The notes under the pieces are model-generated. The model saw only the letters and a list, made by a program, of their open reading frames with translations, had not been told where the DNA came from and ran no database searches. Positions 39,707 to 41,431 of a stretch of DNA of 64,000 bases are shown here, one piece after another. The DNA is taken from contig NZ_CP114903.1 in the NCBI RefSeq assembly GCF_027497255.1, positions 5,952,001 to 6,016,000 of the forward strand, in the 5' to 3' direction. This stretch comes from Micromonospora sp. WMMD882. Its GTDB lineage: Bacteria > Actinomycetota > Actinomycetes > Mycobacteriales > Micromonosporaceae. Position 1 is the first letter of the stretch; each line of letters begins with the position of its first letter. The translations under genes and the position numbers were made by a program.

Positions 39707-40021
39707 GGTGATCAGCTACCCGCGCCGGAATCGGTCAAACGTCGCCCCGACCGCCCGGAAGACAGGTGACAGTCGTCACCGTCGGGCCCGGAACACCGGG
39801 CGCCCCGGGCCGGTTGTGTGAGGTGTCGGTGTGACCAGTGTCCCCGGGCCTCACCAACATGCCTTCGCGGAATACCGTTCGGCTGGAGCCGCGTCGTGCC
39901 ACTCGCCGAGAGGCGACCTGCACACCGACGCCAGCGCCGCCCCGGGTCAGCCCGGGGCGGCGCTGTTGCTGTGCGCGTGACGTCAGGCCGCAGCGGCGCT
40001 TCCCCGGCGCGGCGCCGGCGG
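39707..40021. other. Intergenic region with dyads
   Basis: 315 bases with no supportable gene. A short dyad GGTGAC-AGTC-GTCACC at 39765-39780 is operator-like and lies about 60 bases upstream of the small gene at 39706. A strong hairpin lies at 39932-39965. An open frame from ATG 39859 reads through the hairpin into antisense of the DAHP synthase gene, so it is not listed as a gene. Confidence 0.5.
39932..39965. terminator. Hairpin terminator of the DAHP synthase gene
   Basis: Perfect 15-base inverted repeat, CAGCGCCGCCCCGGG at 39932-39946 and its complement at 39951-39965 with a four-base loop. On the minus strand it follows the DAHP synthase stop by about 57 bases. On the plus strand it is followed by TTGCTGT. 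Confidence 0.8.
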
Positions 40022-41113
40022 TCAGGCCGGGGCGGGGGTGTGGGCGTGGGCGCGACGGGCGCGGACGGCGGTGGCGAGGTCGTCGAGGACCTGGGCGGTG
40101 TCGGGCCAGCCGAGGCAGGCGTCGGTGACCGACTGACCGTAGGTCAGCTCCCGGGTCGGGTCCAGATCCTGCCGGCCGGGCTCCAGGAAGCTCTCCAGCA
40201 TGATGCCGACGATGCCGCGCTGCCCGGCGGCGAGCTGCCCGGCCACGTCCGCCGCGACCACCGGCTGACGGCGGTGGTCCTTGCCGCTGTTGTCGTGGCT
40301 GGCGTCGATCACCAGCCGCTCGGGCAGGTTCGCCGCCCGGAGCTGGGCCAACGAGTCCGCCACCGAGTCGGCGTCGTAGTTGGGCAGGCCCCGGCCGCCG
40401 CGCAGCACCAGGTGCCCGTCCGCGTTGCCCCGGGTGTGCAGGATCGCCGGGGTGCCGGAGACGTCGATGCCGGGGAAGACGTGCGGCACGCCGGCGGCCC
40501 GGATCGCGTCCACGGCGGTGCCGATGCTGCCGTCCGGGCGGTTCTTCATGCCGATCGGCATGGACAGCCCGGAGGCGAGCTGCCGGTGCACCTGGCTCTC
40601 CACCGTCCGGGCGCCGATCGCGCCCCAGGCCACGGTGTCGGCGATGTACTGCGGGGTGATCGGGTCGAGGAACTCGCAGCCCACCGGGAGGCCGAGGCGC
40701 AGCACGTCGAGCAGGAGCGCCCGGGCCAGCCGCAGGCCGGTGTTGACGTCACCGGAGCCGTCCAGCCCCGGGTCGTTGATCAGGCCCTTCCAGCCCACGG
40801 TGGAGCGGGGCTTCTCGAAGTAGACCCGCATGACCACCAGCAGGTCGTCGGCGTGCCGCGCGGCGGCTGCCCGGAGCCCGCGCGCGTACTCCAGGGCCGC
40901 GGCCGGGTCGTGCACCGAGCACGGGCCGACCACCACCAGCAGCCGGTCGTCGGTACGGTCCAGCACCCGGCTGACCGCCCGCCGGCCGGCGAGCACGGCC
41001 GAGGTGAGGGTGGTGTCCAGGGGGAGTTCGTGGTGCAGCAGGGCCGGGGTGGTCAGCGGCACGATCCGCTCGATCCGCTGATCGATGACCTGGTCGGACT
41101 CCGGGGTCGTCAC
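40022..41113 (-). CDS. 3-deoxy-7-phosphoheptulonate (DAHP) synthase, class I
   Basis: 363 residues of the AroF/AroG/AroH (type I alpha) family, which condenses phosphoenolpyruvate and erythrose 4-phosphate, the first step of the shikimate pathway. Signature segments are VVGPCSVHDPAAALEYA, MRVYFEKPRSTVGWKGLI, GCEFLDPITPQYIAD, GMKNRPDGS and VIDASHDNSGKDHRRQ (metal-binding His and Asp). The GTG at 41113 has GGAAGG about nine bases upstream; the ATG at 41137 would remove that site. A leader peptide and alternative pairing segments precede it (41136-41299), so aromatic amino acids probably control it. Many actinomycetes use a class II enzyme for primary metabolism, so this class I copy may be secondary. 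Confidence 0.95.
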   Translation of the reverse strand: MTTPESDQVIDQRIERIVPLTTPALLHHELPLDTTLTSAVLAGRRAVSRVLDRTDDRLLVVVGPCSVHDPAAALEYARGLRAAAARHADDLLVVMRVYFEKPRSTVGWKGLINDPGLDGSGDVNTGLRLARALLLDVLRLGLPVGCEFLDPITPQYIADTVAWGAIGARTVESQVHRQLASGLSMPIGMKNRPDGSIGTAVDAIRAAGVPHVFPGIDVSGTPAILHTRGNADGHLVLRGGRGLPNYDADSVADSLAQLRAANLPERLVIDASHDNSGKDHRRQPVVAADVAGQLAAGQRGIVGIMLESFLEPGRQDLDPTRELTYGQSVTDACLGWPDTAQVLDDLATAVRARRAHAHTPAPA

Positions 41114-41135
41114 GGTGGGTTTCCTTCCGCCGACC

Positions 41136-41270
41136 ATCCCCGGGGCCGGCGCCCGGGATCGAGCCGGCTGCTCGTTAGCAGAAGACGGCAGGGGACCGCC
41201 TGATCCCCGCCTGGCCGGCTCGAAGAGTGGTGACGTCAGCTCAAGGTCGAGTCACCGGCTGCGAGCCGGC
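41136..41270 (-). promoter_or_regulatory. Candidate aromatic amino acid attenuator of DAHP synthase
   Basis: On the transcript strand three 9-base segments occur in order: GCCGGCTCG (41270-41262, inside the leader ORF after the Tyr/Trp/Phe codons), CGAGCCGGC (41222-41214) and GCCGGCTCG again (41168-41160). Segment 2 can pair perfectly with 1 or with 3, but not both. A further hairpin, ATCCCGGG (41159-41152) with CCCGGGGAT (41144-41136), lies directly before the ribosome site of the synthase. This is the arrangement of ribosome-mediated attenuation; which pairing stops expression is inferred. Confidence 0.7.
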
Positions 41271-41299
41271 TGGCTAAACCATCGATACGAGCGCGTCAC
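41252..41299 (-). CDS. Putative aromatic leader peptide of DAHP synthase
   Basis: A 15-codon frame, MTRSYRWFSQPARSR, with Tyr-Arg-Trp-Phe codons (41287-41276) in its middle, all three aromatic amino acids within four codons. It ends with TGA 138 bases before the DAHP synthase start. The GTG lies seven bases after TACGCT, a -10-like hexamer, so it probably starts a leaderless transcript. Tyr plus Trp plus Phe adjacency is unlikely by chance in such GC-rich DNA, where these codons are rare. Peptide sequence and position are seen; function as a stalling sensor is inferred. Confidence 0.7.
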   Translation of the reverse strand: MTRSYRWFSQPARSR

Positions 41300-41431
41300 G
41301 CCGGCCAGCGTACCCGACCGGAGCGCCGAGAGCTCATCCCGATGTCGGAGAACAGACCCGTGGCGTTCACGAAAGTCGATGAACCGGGCCGTAGCTTCAT
41401 CGACCGTCGTCCTCGTTTACGGGAGGTTTCA

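Follow-up and report, generated by a model that had tools for sequence, protein, structure and literature searches.

The class I DAHP synthase gene of Micromonospora sp. WMMD882, which lies in the 64,000-nucleotide stretch of DNA analysed here (the window), is preceded by a short reading frame with adjacent codons for Tyr, Arg, Trp and Phe and by three 9-nt segments that can pair in alternative ways, and the question raised by this locus is whether these elements together control the synthase by attenuation. DAHP synthase is the first enzyme on the route to the aromatic amino acids, and it is a target in the engineering of aromatic products. Our analyses indicate that the region likely acts on the synthase gene as a ribosome-mediated attenuator belonging to one family with aroR-aroF of Corynebacterium, and that the leader very probably raises the synthase when aromatic amino acids are scarce. 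The observed parts of this attenuator are a translated frame, its rare codons, the position of its promoter, the pairing arms, a covarying hairpin (T) and inner D hairpin, and an architecture common to other families. The positions that an earlier note, made from the letters alone, had given for the frame, the three 9-nt segments, the TACGCT box and the hairpin at the synthase ribosome site were all correct when the letters were read again, and the features are collected in Table 1.

Table 1. Features of the DAHP synthase gene and its leader region (positions are those of the window)
Feature	Position	Strand	Basis
Class I DAHP synthase (aroFGH), GTG start	40022–41113	minus	NCBIfam TIGR00034 equivalog
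Synthase Shine-Dalgarno GGAAGGA	41122–41128	minus	Letters read
Arm D: inner hairpin ATCCCGGG..CCCCGGGGAT plus outer GGTCGGC, directly before the synthase Shine-Dalgarno	41129–41159	minus	Covariation counts
Arm C, GCCGGCTCG; partner of B or of the outer part of D	41160–41168	minus	Letters, alignments
Hairpin T, between B and C	41187–41211	minus	Covariation in relatives
Arm B, CGAGCCGGC; partner of A or of C	41214–41222	minus	Letters, alignments, duplex scores
Leader peptide frame, 15 codons, MTRSYRWFSQPARSR	41252–41299	minus	Letters read; leader in 129/130 orthologues examined
Arm A', AGCCGG, local hairpin partner of arm A, end of frame	41255–41260	minus	Letters; conserved by eye, pairs uncounted
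Arm A, GCCGGCTCG, within leader frame	41262–41270	minus	Letters read; A:B pairing counted in alignments
Regulatory codons TAT CGA TGG TTT	41276–41287	minus	Last core codon TTT 129/129; Tyr codons TAT 128/128
-10-like box TACGCT, leaderless-type promoter of leader mRNA	41307–41312	minus	Letters read; TANNNT position in 121/129 family leaders

The identity of the downstream gene is clear from its match to TIGR00034 (465.9 bits against a cutoff of 173.2, run on the open reading frame 40022–41137). The list of open reading frames starts the synthase at an ATG at 41137, and the GTG at 41113, which stands behind GGAAGGA, is the more likely start. A synthase match is present in all 61 genomes of the genus sample and in 92 of the 121 genomes of the family sample, and it is absent from the other 29. 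Upstream of the gene, the letters read from 41299 to 41252 give the leader frame as GTG ACG CGC TCG TAT CGA TGG TTT AGC CAG CCG GCT CGC AGC CGG TGA, which is translated as VTRSYRWFSQPARSR followed by the stop. Arm B is a perfect 9-nt complement of arm A and arm C is a repeat of A; such direct-inverse-direct triples of 9-mers within 217 nt were found in 20 of 4254 overlapping windows of a scan of the 64 kb on both strands, at three places only. The folding z-score of the 200-nt leader RNA is -2.69, and none of 200 shuffles was equally stable.

Conservation of the leader was examined in the upstream DNA of 138 loci from the same family, viz. 130 orthologues (at least 60% identity) and 8 paralogues (51–58% identity). 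With leader-picking rules that were loosened stepwise after inspection, an aromatic leader starting 150–225 nt before the start of the match was found in 129 of the 130 orthologues, the sole exception being a locus without a leader (L067, 75% identical), and in none of the 8 paralogues. The shuffle controls apply only to a stricter definition, in which five residues must include three or more of W, Y and F. By this strict rule an aromatic frame precedes 120 of the 130 orthologues and none of the 8 paralogues; five rounds of dinucleotide shuffling gave 1.8 on average, and the reverse strand gave 1. Within the genus, the divergence among 55 leaders over the three codons that precede the core is 0.059, 0.024 and 0.404 at codon positions 1, 2 and 3, respectively, and its near restriction to third positions implies that the leader peptide is translated and selected. 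When the genome that contains the window was searched with the core pattern, the only exact match was the leader itself. The conservation of the YRWF codons and of the arm pairing was thus checked in relatives, and the claim of an aromatic leader was not refuted.

The codon content of the 129 family leaders is highly uniform in one respect and variable in another. The core is YRWF in 71 leaders and YWRF in 13, and other leaders carry variants such as FYWF, WYSWF, YQRF, YPWF and WYACF; nevertheless, its last codon is invariably TTT (129/129), and TAT stands three codons earlier in 115. Over all family leaders Tyr is encoded by TAT 128 times and never by TAC, and Phe by TTT 134 times and by TTC 6 times, whereas 57 synthase bodies from the same locus set use TAT 0, TAC 279, TTT 7 and TTC 245 times. 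This codon choice, opposite to that in the synthase genes, offers a clean system for asking whether invariant rare synonymous codons tune stalling. In 51 leaders from other families the counts are TAT 61, TAC 5, TTT 52 and TTC 18, a bias that is strong but not absolute. Phenylalanine is present in all 129 family leaders, tyrosine in 128 and tryptophan in 121. The earlier note had proposed that a single leader senses all three aromatic amino acids, and this proposal goes further than the evidence: Trp is absent from 8 of the 129 leaders and Tyr from 1, with TTT invariant.

The start of the leader mRNA can be approached through the signals that precede the frame. In 121 of the 129 family leaders the frame is preceded, at a distance of 6 or 7 nt, by a TANNNT box (background 0.1 per offset), the gap between TACGCT and GTG on the minus strand of the window being 7 nt, and a Shine-Dalgarno-like 4-mer ahead of the leader start is found in none of the 129. 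Together these observations point to, but do not prove, transcription starting at the start codon or next to it, and, on these sequence signals, the leader mRNA is probably leaderless. The leaderless-type promoter position suggested for TACGCT is in this way supported across the family. A sigma-70 scan found no promoter, and its consensus may not suit actinobacteria. In C. glutamicum, aroR is itself leaderless. The accompanying view of the earlier note, that leaderlessness is an unusual basis for attenuation, was not upheld, as leaderless leader peptides are already reported, in the accessible parts of the sources, for trpL, leuL and ilvL of S. lividans (PMC8079986) and, in C. diphtheriae, for that of ilvB (PMC5784534).

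RNAalifold recovered hardly any structure from 89 leaders aligned jointly, and two clades were then aligned separately, viz. type I, to which the window belongs (A1, 50 of 97 leaders), and type II (A2, 23 of 26 leaders); six g18 leaders are in neither alignment. Covariation is given below as counts of double-change cells against shuffled means, which are uncorrected for relatedness. In type I, A:B is 92% paired and B:C 93% paired, neither with covariation, a silence of the window's clade that is due to the fact that the arms hardly vary. In type II, A:B is 91% paired and has 9 double-change cells against 4.0, all of them in one pair that changes from C-G to U-A. Duplex scores, obtained in local windows with shuffles, fall below z -2 for A:B in 70 of 97 leaders of type I and 25 of 26 of type II, and for B:C in 58 of 97 and 9 of 26, respectively, B:C being weak in type II. 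Energies of arm A against the whole downstream region were dropped, being confounded by GC-rich palindromes. The two structures are mutually exclusive, as they have arm B in common. Of the claim that mutually exclusive arms are conserved, the part that stands is the pairing, as A:B and B:C are kept in relatives and are backed by the duplex scores and by one compensated A:B pair in type II; the 9-nt arms do not covary in the window's clade.

In the attenuator model that we favour, a leaderless mRNA would begin at or next to the GTG, and a scarcity of charged aromatic tRNA, that of Phe above all, would cause the ribosome to stall at the rare Tyr, Trp and Phe codons. The stalled ribosome would cover arm A, leaving B free to pair with C; C would then be kept off D and the synthase would be expressed. 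Translation of the leader to its stop codon would instead allow A:B and C:D to form beside the ribosome site, and expression would fall. The stalling, its direction, the exchange of B:C for C:D and the readout are the parts of this model that we infer, and candidates for the readout would be termination at T, termination at C:D or a block to the start of translation. The ribosome footprint extends about 15 nt ahead of the P-site codon, and a stall at Phe should therefore reach arm A while a stall at Tyr should not. The latter would fit the behaviour of C. glutamicum aroF, whose expression, according to the accessible part of a review, rises when Phe is limiting and is unaffected by Tyr (PMC11802643). 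Constrained folding of 124 of the 129 leaders with a ribosome over the codons, a mask that itself removes arm A, increased the mean number of B:C pairs from 6.9 to 9.9 in type I and from 1.7 to 6.3 in type II, and decreased that of C-D pairs from 11.4 to 8.6 and from 15.0 to 12.2, respectively. The window's own leader (L001) showed a small B:C shift on modelled stalling (1.43 to 1.89 pairs), and the six g18 leaders showed none (0.1 to 0.0).

The proposals for the readout are compatible with the main statement and do not exclude it. The one that fares best, which is possible but less likely than not, is that the regulated step of the same attenuator is intrinsic termination at hairpin T, presumably as in Corynebacterium, with C and D as accessories. 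Hairpin T shows strong covariation (48 double-change cells against 21.3 in A1 and 17 against 5.1 in A2), recurs in other families and is terminator-like in relatives, with a run of at least three T in 108 of the 123 leaders scored (the six g18 leaders left out) and a T6 run in C. pollutisoli (L225); attenuator transcripts are, moreover, reported at C. glutamicum aroF in the accessible part of PMC4046766. However, T of the window is imperfect and has no T run, and in g18 the hairpin is apparently missing by eye although the leader is kept. A scan for terminator-like sites found none in the leader RNA of the window, its one match (41373–41357) lying upstream of that RNA. It also speaks against this proposal that T is predicted in all modelled ribosome states, with mean probabilities of 0.99–1.00, and that no alternative pairing disrupting it was found. 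Simple competition thus cannot switch T, and T as a competition-switched terminator was set aside as a simple model.

A second proposal for the readout, which appears rather unlikely, places it at the start of translation or in RNA stability, with the D hairpin, with or without arm C, blocking 30S loading by the ribosome site. The D region of A1 has 18 double-change cells against 6.6 shuffled, 16 of them in the inner hairpin, which accordingly covaries, and 2 in the outer helix formed with arm C; sliding the whole D structure by one column gave 21 cells as against 18, but a covariation score of 0.141 as against 0.179. In type I, D lies immediately ahead of the Shine-Dalgarno sequence and has no T run, which favours such a block. 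On the other hand, modelled stalling does not make the Shine-Dalgarno sequence more accessible on average (0.62 to 0.55 in type I), and the C:D structure of type II, which has 7 double-change cells against 2.6 in A2, all in one pair, lies by eye farther from the start codon. We consider it unlikely, though conceivable, that the window's clade carries a rebuilt attenuator, in which T would now be a fixed spacer inside B:C, the switch would have moved to C/D at the ribosome site, and one leader would integrate Tyr, Trp and Phe through its invariantly rare codons; this suggestion draws on the lack of a T run in the window and the apparent absence of T in g18.

It is far less probable that the reading frame is fortuitous and that the region is a structured RNA responding to a signal unrelated to translation (a riboswitch or a protein site). 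The nucleotide invariance of the core and arms A–C is unusually high, as such an RNA would require, and a small helix, P0, pairs the aromatic codons with a region near the stop codon. In A1, P0 has 5 double-change cells against 0.6, though a three-column slide gave 9; its partner has also changed where TGG became TGC in four g31 leaders, and the type II alignment shows 98% pairing of P0 but no double change. A fortuitous frame is nevertheless difficult to reconcile with the third-position divergence ahead of the core, with Tyr and Phe codons that are invariantly rare and with cores that differ yet stay aromatic (YRWF, YWRF, FYWF, WYACF, YFWF, WYAYF). A further point against this reading is that Rfam has no match at the gathering score, either in the window or in 14 related loci. 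With the threshold relaxed to E of 1, Rfam returned two microRNA families and an sRNA from cyanobacteria; none of these reached the gathering score, and they were rejected.

To follow the attenuator beyond the family, the strict rule was applied to the upstream DNA of 67 loci from the same order or class. Leaders are present in 12 of 12 loci of family f7, 15 of 17 of f30, 2 of 2 of f3, 3 of 3 of f4 and the single loci of f16 and f44; in f13 they are present in 14 of 20, two of these (L185 and L217) with chance-like frames. The rule found none in 9 loci of f27, in 2 of f14 (2 of 31 f14 genomes with a synthase match being examined), and, among named records, none in 12 from Nocardiopsis, Thermobifida, Marinactinospora and one unplaced MAG. 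Two loci (L157 and L230) have an RFPF frame that falls outside the strict rule. Among named records the core is QRFYF in Corynebacterium ulceribovis and C. pollutisoli, YWRF in Tsukamurella and Tomitella, and YWRFF in Gordonia. As a side observation from g73 of f13 (L188, L190, L193 and L195), two genomes (G223 and G258) have several copies of the synthase, and in each one examined copy has a leader and another lacks it.

A covariance model, R1, was built from 23 of the 26 type II leaders (A3), and its E-values are rough. Full-length matches were obtained for the window (25.7 bits, E about 1e-5) and for C. ulceribovis (L224; 59.6 bits, E about 4e-16), and C. pollutisoli (L225) scored only 14.9 bits (E 0.034). 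Full-length matches on the gene strand at E below 0.001 were found in 39 of 84 loci, C. ulceribovis included. R1 matches all 27 type I leaders given to it (of 97), that of the window included, and leaves L067 unmatched; at E below 0.01 it matches none of the 8 paralogues and none of 14 Pseudomonadota loci. Leader-bearing loci missed at full length are L177, L178, L201, L204 and L218 in f7 and L191, L192, L194–L196, L198, L200 and L205 in f13, and its matches to g18 are weak (L094, L082 and L084, E 0.018 to 0.56). On the opposite strand R1 gave partial matches with scores reaching 35.5 bits, as well as a full-length match of 18.0 bits (L078), a level at which the 18.7 bits of L060 also lie; as palindromic arms produce such partial matches, weak scores mean little. 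Chance can be dismissed as an explanation, as can an artefact of palindromes in GC-rich DNA: GCCGGC-type palindromes are common at high GC and account for the partial opposite-strand matches to true elements, but the conservation of the leader, the shuffle, 9-mer and codon-position controls and the lack of R1 matches in paralogues and Pseudomonadota refute it.

Some further observations were made outside the actinobacteria. One locus in a record titled Acidobacteriaceae (L226, BOG_194) has an actinobacterial-type leader and synthase, perhaps owing to a misbinned contig or a transfer. In L226 and L241–L303, named records that by title lie outside the actinobacteria and are mostly from Pseudomonadota, upstream frames rich in F/Y/W (e.g. 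SARFYFYFFWHLRPLADREG, AYSYWYF and FAYFWFS) are found at 54 of 63 class I DAHP synthase loci; shuffled sequences gave 10.8 and the reverse strand 13. As R1 matches none of the 14 Pseudomonadota loci tested, the frames there may be independent attenuators.

A separate feature of the window is a block of about 110 nt (39818–39930, plus strand) that lies downstream of the synthase and convergent with it and is bounded by the terminal inverted repeat GTCGGTGTG/CACACCGAC. Each of the 12 other genomes of the genus that were searched carries 1–3 near-full copies, with 84–96% identity along most of the block, and a single match of 87% lies in another family; altogether the block is present in 14 of 21 genomes. 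A search of Rfam gave no sensible match for this block, which is a candidate for an unannotated RNA or a small mobile element.

The closest known system is that of C. glutamicum, in which Neshat et al. in 2014 reportedly described a leader peptide, aroR, ahead of aroF. The statement in the earlier note that an attenuator has been reported for a corynebacterial DAHP synthase is confirmed by the accessible text of three sources, which report aroR, a Phe-Tyr-Phe leader before aroF, as an attenuator (PMC4046766, PMC11802643, PMC7356990). Judged through the sequences of C. ulceribovis and C. pollutisoli, the element of the window belongs to the aroR-aroF family, an assignment that follows from the common architecture and the R1 matches: in both, the gene of a class I DAHP synthase is preceded by an aromatic leader peptide, and the A/B/T anatomy is recognizable by eye in these two Corynebacterium species as in the window. 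The core is Phe-Tyr-Phe in aroR and Tyr-Arg-Trp-Phe in the window, and since cores vary within the family, the absence of Phe-Tyr-Phe is taken as a lineage difference and not as a defining feature. The window differs further in its 3' module of arms C and D, which abuts the ribosome site, and in a hairpin T without a T run.

The trp attenuators of Corynebacterium and Streptomyces resemble the window in having a leader peptide with aromatic codons and alternative hairpins (PMC1262725, PMC8079986), which in S. lividans is leaderless (PMC8079986), but, in the accessible text of the same sources, they employ Trp codons and control another operon. Likewise, the pheA (pheL) attenuator of E. coli uses a leader peptide to place an aromatic gene under the control of Phe tRNA charging (PMC11802643), but that leader responds to Phe only and has another target gene. 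The available part of PMC1262725 reports conserved structures for Trp, Cys, Leu and ileS only, and none for other pathways, and in the open-licence literature, so far as its text is accessible, no description of such a DAHP synthase leader beyond Corynebacterium was found. What is new here is the spread of the leader over several actinobacterial families, its invariant rare codons and its lack of a match in Rfam. An attenuator reported in one industrial species is thereby extended to an RNA element common to several actinobacterial families, for which a working covariance model is now at hand.
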